Assembly (NCBI GenBank): GCA_944386775.1
Contig: CALXCJ010000014.1
Coordinates: 1 to 33,536 of the forward strand
Length of the DNA stretch: 33,536 bases
Source of the DNA: an uncultured Clostridia bacterium
Lineage (GTDB): Bacteria > Bacillota > Clostridia > TANB77 > CAG-508
Direction: 5' to 3'
Under the pieces are notes generated by a model, which saw only the letters and a program-made list of their open reading frames with translations, made no database searches and was not told the DNA's origin. The position numbers and the translations under genes are program-made. This document shows positions 10,590 to 24,423 of the stretch, in pieces. Positions within the stretch are counted from its first letter, which is position 1. Every line of letters starts with the position of its first letter.

Positions 10590-10613
10590 ATATTAACCTC
10601 TTTTTTTATTTTC

Positions 10614-10748
10614 TCTTCTTTACTTTTTTGTTCATTTTTATTTTTATATTTTTTGTTTTTGATTTTTTTGTTTTTGTACATTTTTGATTTTTTTGTTTTT
10701 GGATTTTTTTGCTTTTTTGCCTTTTGCTTTTTTTAATTTTTGGCTTTT
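10614..10748. repeat. T-rich low-complexity spacer with short repeats
   Basis: On the plus strand this stretch is almost pure T punctuated by G, with the unit GTTTTTGATTTTTTTG occurring twice and shorter variants afterwards. In the mRNA of the minus-strand genes it would be an unstructured A-rich linker between the CNNM-type gene and the WG-repeat gene. Confidence 0.6.
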
Positions 10749-12074
10749 TTATTTTTGATCTTCACTATGTTTTTGTTCTTCATTATTATTTTTGCACACT
10801 TTTACTTTTACTATTCTTTTATCTTCATATTCTTCTATTTTATATGTTACATTTTTTGTTTCTATTATTGGTTTTTCTTCTTCTTGTGGTATTCTTCCCA
10901 TTTCTTCTTGCAAGAATCCTGATAATGTGTCATAGTCTCCTTCTGGTATATCTGCATCTATTAGTTTGTTTACATCATATATTGTCATACTTCCACTTAA
11001 AATATATGTGTTTTCGTCTATTTTTTTATATTCTTCTTCTACTTCATCATATTCGTCATATATATCTCCTACTAGTTCTTCTAGTATGTCTTCCATTGTG
11101 ATTAAACCTGCTGTTCCTCCATATTCATCTAGTACTATTGCCATTTGCATTTTATTTTTTTGCATTTCTTTGAATAGCTCATCTATCATTTTGTTTTGTG
11201 GTACGAAATATGCTTTTTTCATTATATTTTTTACTTTGAGTGTTTTTTTGTTTATGTTTTTTAATACGTCTTTTATATATATAATTCCTTGAATTTCATC
11301 TATTGTTTCATCATATACTGGTATTCTACTATATTTATAGTCTTCACTAGATATTTCTTCTAGTAGTTCTGCGAGGCTCGTGTTTTGATCTATTGCAAAA
11401 ATGTCTGTTCTGTGTGTCATTATTTCTGAAACAACTATATCATTGAATTCAAATACATTATTTAATAATTCTTTTTCATCTTCTTCTATTGTTCCTTTTT
11501 CTTTTCCTTGGTCTATCATCATTTTTATTTCTTCTTCTGTTACTGTTTCTTCTTCGTTTTCTCCTATTCCTAGAAGTTTTGATATTGAGTTAGTTACAAA
11601 TGTTAGAAATTTTACAAATGGTGCTGCTATAATTGAAATTGCCCTTATTATTCCTATTGAAAAAAAAGATACCTTTTCTGCATTTTTCATTCCTATCCTT
11701 TTTGGAACTAATTCACCAAATATTAGTGTGAAGAATGATAGTATTATTGTTATTATTATTATTGATATTGCTTTCCAAGTTTCTACACTTAAAATTGGCA
11801 TTATGTTGTTTAGTACTGGTGCTAAAATGTTTGCAAATGCATCTGATGCAAATGCACTTGATAAAAACCCTGCAAGTGTTATGCCTATTTGTATTGTTGC
11901 TAAGAATTTGCTTGGTGTTTTTAACATTTTTTCTATTTGTTTTGCTTTTTTATTTCCTTCTTTTGCTTGTTTTTCTATCTTTGCATCATTTAGTGATATA
12001 TATGCAATTTCTGTTGCTGCAAAAAAAGCGTTTATAAGTATCAATATTACTAGTATAAATATTTGTCCTAACAT
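10749..12074 (-). CDS. CNNM/CorC (HlyC) family transporter-associated protein
   Basis: A 441-residue hemolysin-family protein. Residues 1-180 hold the CNNM/DUF21 membrane domain (four hydrophobic segments; INAFFAATEIAYISLN near 15 is its signature). Two CBS domains follow at about 215-335, where FEFNDIVVSEIMTHR marks the entry, with DEYGGTAGLITMEDILEELVG near the end. A CorC_HlyC domain (about 355-430) closes the protein. The family is linked to Mg2+ or Co2+ efflux and metal homeostasis; haemolytic activity is a historical label. Conserved residues look intact and the length is normal. The start is supported by GGAGGAA nine bases upstream of ATG. The last dozen residues are polar and probably unstructured. 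Confidence 0.92.
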   Translation of the reverse strand: MLGQIFILVILILINAFFAATEIAYISLNDAKIEKQAKEGNKKAKQIEKMLKTPSKFLATIQIGITLAGFLSSAFASDAFANILAPVLNNIMPILSVETWKAISIIIITIILSFFTLIFGELVPKRIGMKNAEKVSFFSIGIIRAISIIAAPFVKFLTFVTNSISKLLGIGENEEETVTEEEIKMMIDQGKEKGTIEEDEKELLNNVFEFNDIVVSEIMTHRTDIFAIDQNTSLAELLEEISSEDYKYSRIPVYDETIDEIQGIIYIKDVLKNINKKTLKVKNIMKKAYFVPQNKMIDELFKEMQKNKMQMAIVLDEYGGTAGLITMEDILEELVGDIYDEYDEVEEEYKKIDENTYILSGSMTIYDVNKLIDADIPEGDYDTLSGFLQEEMGRIPQEEEKPIIETKNVTYKIEEYEDKRIVKVKVCKNNNEEQKHSEDQK

Positions 12075-15442: not shown

Positions 15443-15617
15443 TTTTCTCTTCCTTTCTATTGGTTTATTCACGAATTACTTTTTATTTATACTGTATTAT
15501 ATATTATTTTTTTGTGTTTGTATAGATTATTTTTTCGTTTACGTAATTATTATATATTGTTTTTGTGTCTTTTAAGTGAATTTTTTCTGTTTTTTTATTT
15601 TGGTTATTCTTTTTATT

Positions 15618-15741
15618 TTATTTATGTTTTTATTTTAGTTGCGTTTTTTATTTTAGTTTTGTTTTTTATTCTAGTTTTGTTTTTTTATTCTAGTTTTGTT
15701 TTTTTATTCTAGTTTTGTTTTTTTATTCTAGTTTTGTTTTT
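15618..15741. repeat. 18-19 bp T-rich tandem repeat
   Basis: The unit is roughly TCTAGTTTTGTTTTTTTAT. CTAG landmarks fall at 15671, 15690, 15709 and 15728, exactly 19 bases apart, with two more degenerate 18-base copies (TTTTAG instead of TTCTAG) to the left. About six copies in all. Confidence 0.85.
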
Positions 15742-15843
15742 TATAAATTCGATTATATGTGGTTTATGAATTTTTTAGATTTTTTGTTTTATAAAATGTT
15801 TTTTAGGTAATTACACATGTTAATTTTTTTTGCAAAAAGACGA

Positions 15844-16983: not shown

Positions 16984-16995
16984 TTCTTCTCCTTT

Positions 16996-17181
16996 TGCTT
17001 TTTTGTTTTTTTGCTTTTATGTTTTTGGATTTTTTTGATTTTGTTTTTTTATTTATGTTTTTGTGTTTTTTGATTTTGCTTTTTTTAATTTTTTTTTTTT
17101 TAATTTATGTTTTTGCATTTATGGATTTTGCTTTTTTCTAATTTATGTTTTGGGGTTCTGTTTTTTTTATTTCTTTTTGTT
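16996..17181. repeat. T-rich low-complexity spacer between rpoD and mscS
   Basis: The plus strand is T-rich with recurring TTTATGTTTTTG and GATTTTGCTTTTTT motifs, including a run of more than 12 T. The mRNA of the minus-strand genes would carry an A-rich, unstructured linker here. Its style resembles the spacers at 10614-10748 and 15618-15741. Confidence 0.6.
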
Positions 17182-18733: not shown

Positions 18734-20521
18734 TTATTTTATTTTGGCTAAACTTATAATTATATCATTTAGCTCTTTTTCTAATTTTTTCTTTTCTTCT
18801 GGTTCTTTAGTTTCTTCTAGTAATTCTAAAATTTCATATTTTCTGTCTGTTAGCTTGTCTTTTTGATATCCTTGCATTAGGTCATCTATTGCTTTTTCTA
18901 TGTCTTGTATTTCATAGTCTATTGCCATTATTTCTGTTATTCTGTTTTGCTCTTCATCTGTTAAATTATTTAATATGCTATTTATATTACTATTTCCTTT
19001 TTCGAATTCTTCATACAGTTTTTTTGCTATTTTATTATTTATTTCATCTTTAAAGTCGTCTTGGCTTAGGTTTTGTTTTATTATGCTATAATAATTTTGG
19101 TTTCCTGTGAGTAATATTGATAGTATTGTGTTTTCTCTTTTTAGCAATGCGTCTGATATTTTTCTTTTTTTGGTTTCTGTTTTTTCGGCATGTACTATTT
19201 TTGGTTTTGGGGCATTTTTTTCATTATTTAAGTTTGAATATATAAGTTTGTTTACTTCTGCATAGATTGCTTCTTTGGATATATCATATTCTTTTGCTAT
19301 TTTTTCTATGTAGATTTCTCTTTCTATACTGCTTTCTATTTTTGAGATTATTTTTGCTGTTTCATTTAAGAATTTTATTTTGTCATTTACATTTTCTAGA
19401 TTTAAGTTTTGTTTTAGGATTTTTACTTTAAATTCTATTACTGAAATTGCTTTATCTACTAAATTTGTGAATCTTGCGTTTCCATATTTGATTACATATT
19501 CGTCTGGGTCTTTTGCTCCTTCCATTTGAAGTACTCTTATGTCACACCCCATGTTCATAAGTATTTCCATTGCTCTTACTTTTGCTGCTTGTCCGGCTTC
19601 GTCTGAATCGTAACTTAGTATTATCTGTTCTGTATTGTTTCTTAGTAAATATCCTTGTTGCTGTGTAAGTGCTGTTCCAAGTGATGCTACTACATTATGG
19701 ATTCCTCTTTGGTGCAAAGATATTACATCCATATATCCTTCTACTATTAATAGTCTTTTTTTTATGTCATATTTTTTTGCTACATTTAGCCCAAATAGGT
19801 GTCTTCCTTTGCTGTATACTACATTTTCTGGGGAATTTATATATTTTGGTTTTGAGTCGTCTAGTACTCTTCCTCCAAATGCAATAACTTTTCCTCTTAC
19901 ATCACATATTGGGAACATTAACCTATTTCTGTATCTGTCTATGTATTTTCCGTTTTCATTTTTGTTTACTAAGCCAGATTCTAGTATTTCTCTTTCTTCA
20001 AAACCTTGTTTTTTTAGTTCATTATATAGCTCGTCAAATTTGCCTGAAAAGCCTATTTTAAATGATTTTAATGTTTCGTTTGAAAGCTTTCTCTTTTTTA
20101 CATATTCTTGTGCCATTTTTGCTTGAGGTTTATATAGGTTTTGATGATAGAATTCAGCTGCAAATTCATTTACTTTATATACTTTTGCCTTTAACTCTTC
20201 TTTTGTAGAATCTTGATTATTGCTAAGTTCTGGTAATTGTATATTTGCTCTTTCTGCTAGAGTTTGTACAGCTTCTACAAAGCTTATTCCTTCTATTTTC
20301 ATTAAAAACGTAAAAACATTTCCTCCAACTCCACATCCAAAGCAGTGAAAAATTTGTTTATCTGGTGAGACAGAAAAAGAGGGAGACTTTTCATTATGAA
20401 ATGGACATAACCCAAAATAATTTCTTCCGCTTCTTTTTAATTGCACATATTGTGATACAATATCTACTATATCACTGTTTTGCCTAACTTCTTCGATGAT
20501 TTCATCACTATATCTTGCCAT
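18734..20521 (-). CDS. dnaG: DNA primase DnaG
   Basis: A 595-residue primase that makes RNA primers for DNA replication. The N-terminal CHC2 zinc finger uses Cys39, His42, Cys60 and Cys63 (LCPFHNEKSPSFS ... HCFGCGVGG). The catalytic TOPRIM domain shows EGYMD at 261-265 and SYDSDEAGQAA near 303-313, the metal-binding acidic residues. The C-terminal part (about 440-595) should contact the DnaB helicase and is diverged and K/E-rich. The length is normal for Firmicutes. It is followed by rpoD in the classical macromolecular synthesis arrangement; rpsU is not adjacent. The 54-bp repeat copy B lies about 95 bases upstream of its start. Confidence 0.97.
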   Translation of the reverse strand: MARYSDEIIEEVRQNSDIVDIVSQYVQLKRSGRNYFGLCPFHNEKSPSFSVSPDKQIFHCFGCGVGGNVFTFLMKIEGISFVEAVQTLAERANIQLPELSNNQDSTKEELKAKVYKVNEFAAEFYHQNLYKPQAKMAQEYVKKRKLSNETLKSFKIGFSGKFDELYNELKKQGFEEREILESGLVNKNENGKYIDRYRNRLMFPICDVRGKVIAFGGRVLDDSKPKYINSPENVVYSKGRHLFGLNVAKKYDIKKRLLIVEGYMDVISLHQRGIHNVVASLGTALTQQQGYLLRNNTEQIILSYDSDEAGQAAKVRAMEILMNMGCDIRVLQMEGAKDPDEYVIKYGNARFTNLVDKAISVIEFKVKILKQNLNLENVNDKIKFLNETAKIISKIESSIEREIYIEKIAKEYDISKEAIYAEVNKLIYSNLNNEKNAPKPKIVHAEKTETKKRKISDALLKRENTILSILLTGNQNYYSIIKQNLSQDDFKDEINNKIAKKLYEEFEKGNSNINSILNNLTDEEQNRITEIMAIDYEIQDIEKAIDDLMQGYQKDKLTDRKYEILELLEETKEPEEKKKLEKELNDIIISLAKIK

Positions 20522-20616
20522 TTTTCCTCACTTTCTTTAAAAATGTTTTTACTTTTTATCCATAATTATATTATTCGACGTATTTTACATAAATCCTTCC
20601 TTTTTTTCATTTTTTT

Positions 20617-20670
20617 CGGGATTGAGGGACGGTCCTTGAAATCCCGGCTAGCCGGGATTTTAGGGACGGA
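20617..20670 (-). repeat. 54-bp palindromic dispersed repeat, copy B (REP-like)
   Basis: The reverse complement of this stretch matches 1607-1660 at 49 of 54 positions. Its core is the perfect palindrome AAATCCCGGCTAGCCGGGATTT. It lies in the gap upstream of dnaG, in opposite orientation to copy A. It is far more GC-rich than its surroundings. Confidence 0.85.
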
Positions 20671-20784
20671 GCTTTAAATTTTGAAAAAGTTTTTTTTCAA
20701 AAAAAATAGCAATTTTTCATTGCTTTTGATATTTTTTAGATTTATCTTTTTTTATTATTTATTAATGATTATTCAAAATTGTAT

Positions 20785-20812
20785 TTGACATTTTTTAATA
20801 TCTGTGTATAAT
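20785..20812 (+). promoter_or_regulatory. Consensus sigma-A promoter of the candidate small RNA
   Basis: A perfect -35 box TTGACA (20785-20790) and perfect -10 box TATAAT (20807-20812), 16 bases apart, with a TGTG directly ahead of the -10. The predicted start is about 20819-20821. This is the best promoter I found in the window and it points at no protein gene. Confidence 0.82.
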
Positions 20813-20819
20813 AAGTATA

Positions 20820-20915
20820 GGAAATGAATAACCGCAGTGAATGCGGTTACCACTACATATAGTTATAACAACACATTCGCAATATTGGCATAGTGGAATG
20901 TGTTGTTATTTTATT
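20820..20915 (+). ncRNA. Candidate structured small RNA, family not recognised
   Basis: About 95 nucleotides between a consensus promoter and a terminator. Hairpin P1 pairs AACCGCA (20830-20836) with TGCGGTT (20842-20848) around GTGAA. Hairpin P2 is a perfect 14-bp stem, ATAACAACACATTC (20865-20878) with 20896-20909, followed by a T-rich tail, so it doubles as terminator. CACTA at 20851-20855 can pair with TAGTG at 20891-20895 in the P2 loop, a possible pseudoknot. It does not look like tmRNA, 6S, SRP RNA, RNase P RNA or a riboswitch that I know. Its 3' end faces the 3' end of the alarmone synthetase gene, so it could also act as an antisense RNA to that transcript. Expression is inferred, not shown. 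Confidence 0.6.
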
Positions 20916-20923
20916 TTAAGCAT

Positions 20924-21583
20924 TTATTTAAGTGCCATTATCTTATTATCCAACTTATTTATTATTTTCGCATAAGACACCAATTCCTTAGATGCTTGTT
21001 TACTTAATTCTTGTTTTGGTTTATATTTCATAGTATGTTCTAAGCTTGCCCAAAAATCCATTGCCATTGTTCTTATTTGCATTTCTAACTTTACATACAT
21101 TAAGTTTTTTGAAAGTGATATTGGCACATTTAATATCATATGATAGCTTGAATACCCGCTCTTTTTGGGGTTTACTACATAGTCCTTTTCTTTTTGAATT
21201 TCAATTCCTGGCAGGTCTTCTACCATATTTCTTATTGAATAAATGTCTTTTTTTAGTGGGCATATTACTCTTATTCCTGCTATGTCATTTATGTTTTTTA
21301 TCATGTTATTATAGGTAAATTCTAGGTCTTTTGATTGCATTTTTTTCTTTATACTTTCAGGTGATTTTATTCGTGTATTTATATGATCTATTAAATCATA
21401 TTCATAAAAAATTTTGGATTCTTTTTGTATTATTTCTAACTTGGTTTGCATTTCTTTTATTCCAACTGAATATATAAACATTATTTTTTTAAATGTTTTA
21501 CTATTTACATCGACATTTTCATTTGTTGATAATAAATTTTCAATTTTTATTAATTGATTACCTTTTGGTTTTTTTCTTTCCAT
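20924..21583 (-). CDS. Small alarmone synthetase, RelQ/YjbM-like GTP pyrophosphokinase
   Basis: A 219-residue single-domain (p)ppGpp synthetase that would transfer pyrophosphate from ATP to GDP or GTP. Family marks are HINTRIKSPESIKKKM, INDIAGIRVICP with the conserved Asp, NPKKSGYSSYHMIL and VKLEMQIRTMAMDFWASLEH. There is no HD hydrolase or regulatory TGS/ACT domain, so it is a small alarmone synthetase rather than a long RelA/Rel protein. I start it at ATG 21583 (MERKKPKG), which has an AAGGAG box; the frame extends 14 codons further without a ribosome site. An unlinked HD-type hydrolase candidate lies 3 kb upstream at 24477-25037. Confidence 0.9.
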   Translation of the reverse strand: MERKKPKGNQLIKIENLLSTNENVDVNSKTFKKIMFIYSVGIKEMQTKLEIIQKESKIFYEYDLIDHINTRIKSPESIKKKMQSKDLEFTYNNMIKNINDIAGIRVICPLKKDIYSIRNMVEDLPGIEIQKEKDYVVNPKKSGYSSYHMILNVPISLSKNLMYVKLEMQIRTMAMDFWASLEHTMKYKPKQELSKQASKELVSYAKIINKLDNKIMALK

Positions 21584-21692
21584 ATATACACTCCTTATTT
21601 TCCCCTCAATCTTTAGTATATGCATATATTACCCTTTATTTGTTATCAAAGTTTATTTTGTTTGTGTTTTTTGTGTGAAAATTTTAAAAGAA

Positions 21693-21823: not shown

Positions 21824-23056
21824 TTATTTGCCATAATAACTATCTAGCATAATTTCTTTTATCTCAGATACTAGTGGAAGTCTTGGGTTTGCTGTCGTGC
21901 ATTGGTCTTCAAAACTTCTGTCTGCAAGCATATCTACTTTTGATAGAAATTCTTGTTCATTTATTCCTGCTTCTTTGAATGATTTTGGTATACCCATATG
22001 TTCATTCATTTCTTTTATTTTTTGAATTAGACTGTTTATTCCTTCTTCTTTTGTGTCTGCTTTTAGTCCTAGTTTTTTTGCTAATTCATAATATTTTTGG
22101 TCTGCTATATAGTATTCGTATTTTGGGAAAGATACGAATTTTGTAGGTTTTGAACTATTGTATTTTATTACATATGGAAGTAATATTGCATTTATTCTTC
22201 CGTGTGGCATATGGAATTCTGCTCCTATTTTGTGTGCTATTGAGTGGTTAATTCCTAAGAATGCATTTGTAAATGCCATTCCTGCTATTGTGCTTGCATT
22301 GTGCATTTTTTCTCTTGCTTCTTTATTGCTTCCATCATCATATGCTTTTTCTAGATATTTAAATACTAGTTCTACTGCCTTTTCTGCTAAGCCATCTGTA
22401 TAGTCTGATGCCATATTTGATACATATGCCTCTAGGCTATGTGTTAATACATCCATTCCTGTGTCTGCTGTGACACTTTTTGGAAGGCTCATAACTAAGT
22501 CTGGATCTACTATTGCAACATCTGGTGTTAATTCATAGTCTGCTAGTGGATATTTTTTATTTTTTTCTTTATCTGTTATTACTGCAAATGATGTTACCTC
22601 TGACCCTGTTCCTGATGTTGTTGGTATTGCTACCATTTGGCATTTTGTTCCAAGTTTTGGGAATTTATAGGTACGTTTTCTTATATCCATAAATTTTAGT
22701 TTTAGTCCTTCTATATCTGCTTCTGGGTGTTCGTAAAATAGCCACATACCTTTTGCAGCATCAATTGGGCTTCCTCCTCCAAGTGCTATTATTACATCTG
22801 GATTGAAACCTTTCATAGCTTCTACACCTTTTTTTATTGTGTCAAATGATGGGTCTGATTCTACATTGCTAAAAATTTCTGAATGTACATATTCTTGCCT
22901 TTTTCTTAAATGATATAAAATTTTATCTACATATCCTAATTTTACCATTCCTTCATCTGTTACTATAAATGCCCTATGAATGTTTGGCATTTTTTCTAGA
23001 TATTCTATTGATCCTGCTTCAAAATATATTTTTTCTGGAACTTTAAACCATTGCAT
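21824..23056 (-). CDS. adhE: AdhE C-terminal part: iron-dependent alcohol dehydrogenase domain
   Basis: A 410-residue open frame covering the whole Fe-dependent alcohol dehydrogenase domain, which reduces acetaldehyde to ethanol with NADH. The opening MQWFKVPEKIYFEAGS is the usual start of this domain inside AdhE. The NAD loop GGGSPIDAAKGMW is near residue 95. Metal-binding and active-site segments are TADTGMDVLTHSLEAYVS near 196-213 and GINHSIAHKIGAEFHMPHGR near 272, carrying the Asp and His ligands. The frame opens with ATG 23056, preceded by GGAGG six bases away. That box is also coding sequence for the AdhE linker (AKRRVN), so this domain could be translated alone. It would otherwise be joined to the aldehyde dehydrogenase domain but for a one-base insertion near 23150. 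Confidence 0.9.
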   Translation of the reverse strand: MQWFKVPEKIYFEAGSIEYLEKMPNIHRAFIVTDEGMVKLGYVDKILYHLRKRQEYVHSEIFSNVESDPSFDTIKKGVEAMKGFNPDVIIALGGGSPIDAAKGMWLFYEHPEADIEGLKLKFMDIRKRTYKFPKLGTKCQMVAIPTTSGTGSEVTSFAVITDKEKNKKYPLADYELTPDVAIVDPDLVMSLPKSVTADTGMDVLTHSLEAYVSNMASDYTDGLAEKAVELVFKYLEKAYDDGSNKEAREKMHNASTIAGMAFTNAFLGINHSIAHKIGAEFHMPHGRINAILLPYVIKYNSSKPTKFVSFPKYEYYIADQKYYELAKKLGLKADTKEEGINSLIQKIKEMNEHMGIPKSFKEAGINEQEFLSKVDMLADRSFEDQCTTANPRLPLVSEIKEIMLDSYYGK

Positions 23057-23057
23057 A

Positions 23058-23681
23058 TTAACCCTCCTTTTTGCAACTCTTTTTATATTTATTAAGTTTA
23101 CTGATGATACATTTGCTGTTGTTGAGTTTCCTCCAAATGAGCCACATCCGGAGTGTTAGTGATGGCATATTTGTATTGTATATGTCACCTATTGCCCCAT
23201 GAGTTGATGGAGAGTTTACTATTATTCTTCCAGCTTTCATTATTTCAGAAAATTTTAGTATTGTTTCTCTGTTTTCTGAATGGATTACTGCAGAGTGCCC
23301 CATTCCTCCAAATTCAATCAATTTTTCTGATTTTTCTATTCCTTCAGTTTCATTTTCTACAATGTAATATGTTAGTACTGGGCTTAGCTTTTCTTTTGAA
23401 AATGGAAAATCTCTTCCTATTCCTTCTTCATATACTACAAGTACTTTTGTATCTTCTGGGACTGTAAATCCTGCATCTTTTGCTATTTTATATGGTGATT
23501 GTCCTGGAACGTGTGATTTTAGTTTGTATCCATTTTCTTCTGTATAGTCAAACATGCTAAATTTTAATTTTTCTTTTTCTTCTTCATTTACAAAATAGCA
23601 TCCTGCTTCTTTCATAAGTTTTTCGAATTCTTGGTATATGTCCCTATCTACTAATACTGCTTGTTCTGATGCACATATCAT
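23058..23681 (-). CDS. adhE: AdhE middle fragment: end of the aldehyde dehydrogenase domain
   Basis: This frame encodes the second half of the CoA-acylating aldehyde dehydrogenase domain. MICASEQAVLVD holds the catalytic Cys (residue 3 here). The same frame runs further upstream to the first insertion at 23769, encoding NVPCYIEKSAKLKTS and SKSFDNG. After SPSTHGAIGDIYNTNMPSLT the frame is lost near 23150 and the tail becomes an unrelated Arg/Lys-rich stretch. In the shifted frame the expected linker GCGSFGGNSTTANVSS and INIKRVAKRRVN is still intact. It has no ribosome site of its own and would not be made as a separate protein. Confidence 0.82.
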   Translation of the reverse strand: MICASEQAVLVDRDIYQEFEKLMKEAGCYFVNEEEKEKLKFSMFDYTEENGYKLKSHVPGQSPYKIAKDAGFTVPEDTKVLVVYEEGIGRDFPFSKEKLSPVLTYYIVENETEGIEKSEKLIEFGGMGHSAVIHSENRETILKFSEIMKAGRIIVNSPSTHGAIGDIYNTNMPSLTLRMWLIWRKLNNSKCIISKLNKYKKSCKKEG

Positions 23682-23688
23682 TCCATTA

Positions 23689-24423
23689 TCAAATGATTTT
23701 GATAGTACTAAATCGTTTACTGATGTTTTTAGTTTTGCACTTTTTTCTATATAGCAAGGTACATTCCCGAGGTCCCACCCCTAAGGCTGGTTTTCCACAA
23801 GAATATGCTGATTTTACCATGCCTGTTCCACCTGTTGCTAAAATTAAATTTACATCTGGATGATTCATTAATGCTCTTGTTGCTTGGATTGATGGTTCTT
23901 CTATCCATAATATACAATCTTCTGGTGCTCCTGCTTTTATTGCTGCGTCTCTTAGAATTTTAGCAGCTGTAGTGCTACATTTTTGTGCTGATGGATGGAA
24001 TCCAAATATTATTACATTTCTTGTTTTTGCAGATATTATTGATTTGAACATGGTTGTTGATGTTGGGTTTGTAACTGGTGTTACTCCTGCAATTATTCCT
24101 ACTGGTTCTGCTATTTCTACATAACCTTCTTCTTCGTTTTCATTTATTATTCCTACTGTTTTTTCGTATTTTATACTATGATATATATATTCTGTTGCGA
24201 ACATGTTCTTTGTTATTTTGTCTTCGTATATTCCTCTTTTTGTTTCTTCTACTGCCATTTTTGCAAGTTCCATGTGGTGTTCTAAGCCTGCCATTGCCAT
24301 TGCTTTTACTATTTTGTCTATTTGGGTTTGGTCAAGCTCTAAGTATTTTTGAGATGCAATTTTGGCTCTTTTGACTAAATCATCAATCATACTTTTTACT
24401 TTTTCCTCATTTTGCTCTTCCAT
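23689..24423 (-). CDS. adhE: AdhE N-terminal fragment: first half of the aldehyde dehydrogenase domain
   Basis: The true start of adhE: ATG 24423 with an AAAGGAGGA box. The protein begins MEEQNEEKVKSMIDDLVKRA and includes the NAD-binding and substrate segments EPVGIIAGVTPVTNPTSTTM near 110-129 and KAGAPEDCILWIEEPS near 175. Reading is normal up to GKPALGVGP, after which one extra base (plus-strand G at 23769, C in the coding strand) shifts it into an unrelated tail. In the other frame the family sequence continues as GNVPCYIEKSAK. The ALDH domain makes acetaldehyde from acetyl-CoA. Confidence 0.85.
   Translation of the reverse strand: MEEQNEEKVKSMIDDLVKRAKIASQKYLELDQTQIDKIVKAMAMAGLEHHMELAKMAVEETKRGIYEDKITKNMFATEYIYHSIKYEKTVGIINENEEEGYVEIAEPVGIIAGVTPVTNPTSTTMFKSIISAKTRNVIIFGFHPSAQKCSTTAAKILRDAAIKAGAPEDCILWIEEPSIQATRALMNHPDVNLILATGGTGMVKSAYSCGKPALGVGPRECTLLYRKKCKTKNISKRFSTIKII

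Follow-up and report, generated by a model that had tools for sequence, protein, structure and literature searches.

What kind of RNA lies between dnaG and the small alarmone synthetase gene relQ in this stretch of DNA (33,536 nt, hereafter the window), and does it act on its neighbor? The original prediction described a structured small RNA gene belonging to no nameable class, with a possible loop pseudoknot and a possible action in trans or as antisense to relQ. We found that the structured RNA gene absent from Rfam stood, while the pseudoknot as a family feature and the tie to relQ did not. Most likely, the RNA served as antisense antitoxin in a type I cassette whose toxin half is absent here, and it is likely still made because its sequence and promoter are both intact. 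The features discussed below are as follows.

18734..20521, minus strand: dnaG, the neighbor on the other side, with DnaG domains
20624..20676, no strand assigned: REP-like GGGACGG palindrome in the relQ-dnaG spacer, probably a separate insertion
20782..20915, plus strand: stretch common to intact cassettes, 99.3% identical over 135 columns to L083, L103, L116, L077 and others
20785..20812, plus strand: antitoxin RNA promoter, TTGACA-16-TATAAT, with 12 of 12 consensus matches
20819..20918, plus strand: antitoxin-type small RNA of about 100 nt, with predicted start and end
20830..20848, plus strand: helix 1, 7 bp (20830-20836 with 20842-20848), paired in 97.6% of cells
20849..20853, plus strand: conserved unpaired ACCAC motif, the complement of GTGGT in the toxin Shine-Dalgarno region
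20865..20919, plus strand: terminator, a perfect 14-bp stem (20865-20878 with 20896-20909) followed by a T-rich tail
20924..21625, minus strand: small alarmone synthetase (relQ/yjbM-like; PF04607, 6.7e-32), convergent and in the place of the toxin

The predicted promoter was confirmed at all 12 positions, with the -35 box TTGACA at 20785-20790, the -10 box TATAAT at 20807-20812 and a spacer of 16. The window RNA (20818-20919) folded at -32.1 kcal/mol, compared with -17.2 ± 3.3 kcal/mol for shuffled sequences (n = 200), which corresponds to a z-score of -4.5 with none of the 200 shuffles as low. An Rfam search at the gathering score revealed no matches anywhere in the window, in agreement with the claim that no RNA class could be named; when E values up to 10 were allowed, the highest-scoring family on the RNA was DapZ at 17.8 bits (E 1.2, cut-off 56), which is at chance level. 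An ATG frame of 12 codons runs through the window RNA, but aligned relatives carry indels within it whose lengths are not divisible by three. The RNA gene, with its own promoter and terminator, is conserved in relatives.

The RNA sequence was used to search its own genome and 93 relatives, and 19 of the 93 relatives gave matches with E < 0.001. A DNA pattern for the terminator stem led to 98 loci in named genome records; 94 of these lie in records titled Clostridia, Clostridium, Clostridiaceae, Lachnospiraceae or Eubacteriales, with animal guts mentioned in several of the titles. Running a covariance model on the window and the 98 pattern loci yielded 133 matches, of which 96 were examined; 28 at about 40 bits or less (most being the reverse strand of an already listed place), 8 truncated at a contig end and 1 that overlapped another match were left out. 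These 96 matches are loci rather than independent events, and several share one assembly. Three pattern loci from unrelated organisms (L065, L082 and L104) gave no match to the covariance model, and the match of model R1 in the window spanned 20817-20912 with 105.3 bits, the window being one of the ten model rows.

The fold was examined in two alignments, namely A4, which comprises ten rows selected for aligning well and not fitted to the model, and A7, which comprises 70 matches fitted to the model (72 source loci given; 59 distinct sequences) and leans towards structure because of this fitting. In an initial curated MAFFT alignment, several rows were misaligned at helix 1, and RNAalifold did not recover this helix from it. 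Across the 59 distinct sequences, helix 1 was paired in 97.6% of cells with changes on both sides in four of its seven pairs, and the terminator stem was paired in 93.6% of cells with such changes in 4 of 14 pairs. The covariation score in the model-fitted alignment was 0.209 against 0.111 in shuffles, none of 500 being as high, and slid partners used as a control scored 0.028-0.053. The unfitted A4 gave 0.185 against 0.113 (0 of 500). Additionally, 72 cells were changed on both sides in the 59 sequences, compared with 20 in shuffles. Two weaker measures were less pronounced: pairs with changes on both sides numbered 8 versus 6.3 in shuffles (54 of 500 as high), and for further pair types the figure was 24 of 500 shuffles. 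The predicted 7-bp hairpin and perfect 14-bp terminator stem are both supported by compensatory changes in the aligned relatives. The hexamer TACCAC was present in 41 of the 59 distinct sequences. The predicted pseudoknot, 20851-20855 (CACTA) with 20891-20895 (TAGTG), is complementary in the window but was rejected as a family feature because its outer pairs are broken in most rows: 56.6% of cells pair in relatives, and the outer two pairs fail in 49 and 43 of the 59 sequences. Its covariation score of 0.110 against 0.074 in shuffles (2 of 500 as high) is carried by the inner pairs.

At E 0.01, the model matched 82 of 97 genomes of the genus; at E 1e-4, it matched 117 of the 238 genomes sampled across the order, in 24 of 40 genera. 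RNA copies were found in tandem on one strand at L130 (four copies) and at L073, L133, L136 and L069 (two or more). With queries from one subfamily, nothing was found in phage and plasmid records (DNA and protein) or, by pattern, in viral contigs. Among the papers listed by literature searches, we saw no title or abstract describing this cassette family.

In most loci whose flanks were read, a hydrophobic open reading frame (ORF) of about 37 codons lies on the opposite strand and ends at the RNA tail. The search for such toxin-type ORFs covered the opposite strand downstream of the 96 RNA matches, and the script classified the loci as 77 with a full ORF, 9 with a partial one, 9 with none and 1 at a contig end. 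On reading the nine partials, we found one to be nearly full (L130_272), five to be remnants (L092, L105, L151, L149 and L124) and three to be chance scores (L137, L147 and L120); the totals over the 96 loci are about 78 pairs, 5 remnants, about 12 solo RNAs including the window, and 1 undecided. In 73 of the 77 full ORFs, the stop codon falls in the terminator tail, 82-97 nt from where the RNA match begins. The 77 ORFs located by an ATG start were 29-40 amino acids long (37 in 52 of them), with a best 19-residue hydropathy mean of 1.9-3.3. GGTGG was found at most 20 nt upstream in 71 of these 77, a count made from ATG-start ORFs only and not from an earlier toxin pattern that required GGTGG; two of the remaining six have no upstream sequence. 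This Shine-Dalgarno region was mostly paired in all 11 leaders folded (mean unpaired 0.01-0.27), and its partner, as judged by eye, was a leader CCAC segment in 10 leaders and another segment in L002. A protein search revealed 86 homologues of the peptide, the single named one being a 'hypothetical protein'.

With E values of up to 1 admitted, a toxin profile gave 23 matches across eight genomes, and 19 of these matches were examined as loci. The RNA adjoined 18 of these 19, the exception being a remnant, in a sample that is biased because the profile was built from RNA-anchored loci; a stop codon lies inside the toxin match in 2 of the 18. Because its relatives are convergent with, and antisense to, a small hydrophobic ORF, the RNA is of antitoxin type, and the anatomy is that of a predicted convergent type I toxin-antitoxin pair: the 77 ORFs encode small hydrophobic proteins under about 60 amino acids, and the RNA gene faces a convergent ORF in about 78 of the 96 loci, with the stop codon reaching into the RNA's terminator tail in 73 of 77.

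We compared the family cassettes with known type I systems. The par/Fst system of pAD1 (RNA I/RNA II) is described as having convergent promoters, a toxin of about 33 amino acids, a terminator hairpin between the genes and a toxin Shine-Dalgarno site within a leader stem-loop (PMC7472228), and the family cassettes are similar in their convergent genes, toxin size, shared hairpin and buried toxin Shine-Dalgarno site. In contrast to par/Fst, direct repeats of at least 12 nt were absent from all four family cassettes tested, the two 5' ends held inverted copies in three of the four, the family RNA measures about 100 nt rather than about 40 nt, and the six family peptides tested had no Pfam match. 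Because of the missing Fst match and direct repeats, we did not file the family under par/Fst despite its layout. The toxin leader and the antitoxin RNA begin alike (ATAG-AAATG) in L011, L018 and L174, so these cassettes have inverted-repeat ends; L028 showed no such similarity at 12 nt or more. No U-run follows the shared hairpin in the direction of the toxin, and helix 1 scores as a terminator when reversed.

The txpA/RatA and bsrG/SR4 pairs overlap at their 3' ends. Both are type I pairs of Bacillus subtilis with a small toxin and an antisense RNA (PMC6563280), from which the family differs, by description, in that the window RNA has no Rfam match and the six peptides have no Pfam match. 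The Clostridioides difficile pairs CD2517.1-RCd8, CD2907.1-RCd9 and CD0956.2-RCd10 are described with a small hydrophobic toxin and a convergent overlapping antisense RNA (PMC6563280), an arrangement shared by the family. These pairs are tied to prophages and CRISPR arrays and have toxins of 34-59 amino acids in the portrayal given there, whereas the queried subfamily was not found in the phage, plasmid and viral data, so the two are set apart by description. Non-cognate action is reported there to be rare among the C. difficile pairs (PMC6563280).

What the sequences show directly is the existence and fold of the family, the ORF convergent with the RNA, and the lack of a toxin in the window copy. 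The window copy agreed with intact cassettes in 134 of 135 columns, beginning at the -35 box and ending two bases beyond where the toxin stop codon would lie, and neither its RNA nor its promoter showed decay. Its 96-nt RNA was identical in 12 of the 98 pattern loci, which come from 10 assemblies and mostly different sites, and similarity among these loci starts at about the -35 box. On the opposite strand, no toxin-type ORF was present in the 360 nt downstream, where relQ is found instead. The toxin profile identified same-type toxins in G034, G036, G049, G023 and G051 and none in the own genome, G000 (a draft of 111 contigs, 94% complete). The latter carries two related pairs of another subfamily, one on contig C1 (toxin E 1.7e-12) and one on C4 (toxin E 0.96; the pair was identified by eye), together with a remnant on C2. 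None of the relQ-dnaG spacers seen in relatives held an intact cassette. We infer that the window copy arose by toxin loss. The zor/orz system is not known to be related in sequence to the window RNA. It offers a parallel in E. coli strains that carry only orz, a type I antitoxin without its toxin, just as the window antitoxin is left without one; the orphan orz of MG1655 has the same sequence as a paired copy, and a northern blot showed its expression (PMC11264685).

Transcription, toxicity and the mechanism of silencing are predicted as follows. In intact cassettes, the toxin mRNA would sequester its ribosome-binding site within a hairpin of the leader and run into the antitoxin gene, and the antitoxin RNA would pair with the 3' part of this mRNA, leading to its block or destruction. 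The pairing energy of the window RNA with a same-type toxin mRNA was -166 kcal/mol versus -38 kcal/mol for 20 shuffles, a duplex that presupposes read-through of the antitoxin gene by the toxin transcript. When only the toxin leader and ORF were offered as target, the energy was -35.1 versus -35.2 kcal/mol in shuffles (11 of 20 as low). A trans anti-Shine-Dalgarno role for ACCAC was accordingly rejected, as the motif is there but pairs no better than shuffles. Pairing with the resident C1 and C4 toxin mRNAs reached -50.6 and -47.7 kcal/mol (none of 20 shuffles being as low in either case), which is expected because these are family members. Since no same-type toxin was found in its own genome, the window RNA would act only in trans, on the toxin mRNA of an incoming identical cassette; the two related resident pairs might serve as alternative targets, weakly.

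Solo antitoxins were present elsewhere in the family, with an asymmetry: about 12 of 96 RNAs lacked a toxin, versus 18 of 19 toxin loci with the RNA. L060 and L123 share one site, with 82% identity over 2486 bp on one side and 80% over 383 bp in another piece that includes the RNA. L060 contains the toxin and L123 does not, and their RNAs are identical at 96 of 96 positions. This comparison points to loss of the toxin with the antitoxin kept, although the identity of the RNAs may predate the loss. Because the family offers pairs, remnants and solo RNAs together, and even a single site in both states, with the toxin and lacking it, the fate of an antitoxin after toxin loss is directly testable.

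The present role of the window copy has two readings, which agree that it derives from a cassette. It stands at even chances that the copy is an inert relic, its toxin gone and its RNA without a target and merely not yet decayed. Consistent with this, promoters with at least two mismatches were found in 5 of 12 solo copies versus 8 of 79 paired ones, and those with at most one mismatch in 7 of 12 versus 71 of 79 (Fisher p 0.012; solo L147, near a contig end, left out, remnant L124 counted as solo and L138, at a contig end, as paired). Most solo copies therefore look like relics; decay is visible in L124, L143 and L081, and the search of G000 gave no same-type toxin. Against this, the RNA and promoter of the window are intact, and the RNA of L123 is unchanged while its surroundings differ by 18-20%, a divergence that includes the time before toxin loss. 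Anti-addiction modules have been described for other toxin-antitoxin systems. A tentative and rather unlikely extension is that solo antitoxins are kept as RNA immunity against a selfish type I cassette circulating among uncultured Clostridia. If true, carrier cells could gain or lose the cassette without harm, and the solo RNA would be an RNA counterpart of such modules.

The identification as a type I antitoxin was further weighed against three other explanations. It is improbable that the convergent ORF encodes an ordinary small membrane peptide with the RNA as its cis-antisense regulator. The database results would allow it, with no match in Pfam at E up to 10 (six peptides), NCBIfam (five) or PADLOC (four) and only weak matches of unknown function in PHROGs (four), but the size, hydrophobicity, buried Shine-Dalgarno site and convergent antisense RNA are typical of type I pairs, as are tandem copies and RNAs without the ORF, the reverse being hardly seen. 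With a covariance model at hand, and with the window RNA unmatched in Rfam and the tested peptides unmatched in Pfam and NCBIfam, the family is ready for naming. Regulation of relQ or relQ-dnaG by an antisense RNA is highly unlikely. As predicted, the RNA ends face to face with the 3' end of the alarmone synthetase gene, and a relQ-dnaG read-through transcript would carry its complement. The RNA was nevertheless missing from all 29 other relQ loci (best 30 of 47 matches fetched, own included), in which the only matches were four of 13-31 nt (E 0.44) and dnaG lay within the fetched flank in 22. Its sequence is that of toxin-bearing cassettes, and its pairing with the last 290 nt or so of the relQ reading frame was unremarkable (4 of 20 shuffles as low). 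The link to relQ is therefore incidental, and antisense action on relQ was rejected as the main function. There is just as little to recommend a chimeric contig that joined the RNA to the relQ-dnaG spacer. The assembly is a 111-contig draft, there are several family copies per genome, and the RNA was not seen at a relQ-dnaG site elsewhere; on the other hand, a single contig carries both relQ and dnaG, with intact ends and in the same order as in relatives, and solo copies are present in other genomes. In particular, relatives align to residue 232 of 233 of relQ, leaving its C-terminus intact; its match to NF053588 (YjbM) is below the cut-off.

The relQ-dnaG spacer measured about 110 to 560 bp in 20 relatives (L030-L056), and several contained palindromic insertions as judged by eye. 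A query with 20615-20700, which covers the GGGACGG palindrome of the window spacer, gave 73 matches within this genome, a count that includes the query stretch and both strands. A SAM-riboswitch match in the window (26.4 bits, cut-off 44.4) was rejected, as it falls on this GGGACGG palindrome, which is also present at 1599-1660. The AdhE-type bifunctional gene at 21824-24423 (minus strand) is split into three ORFs in three frames, and is either a pseudogene or an assembly error. We also observed T-rich tandem arrays at 10601-10757, 15588-15742 and 16993-17151.
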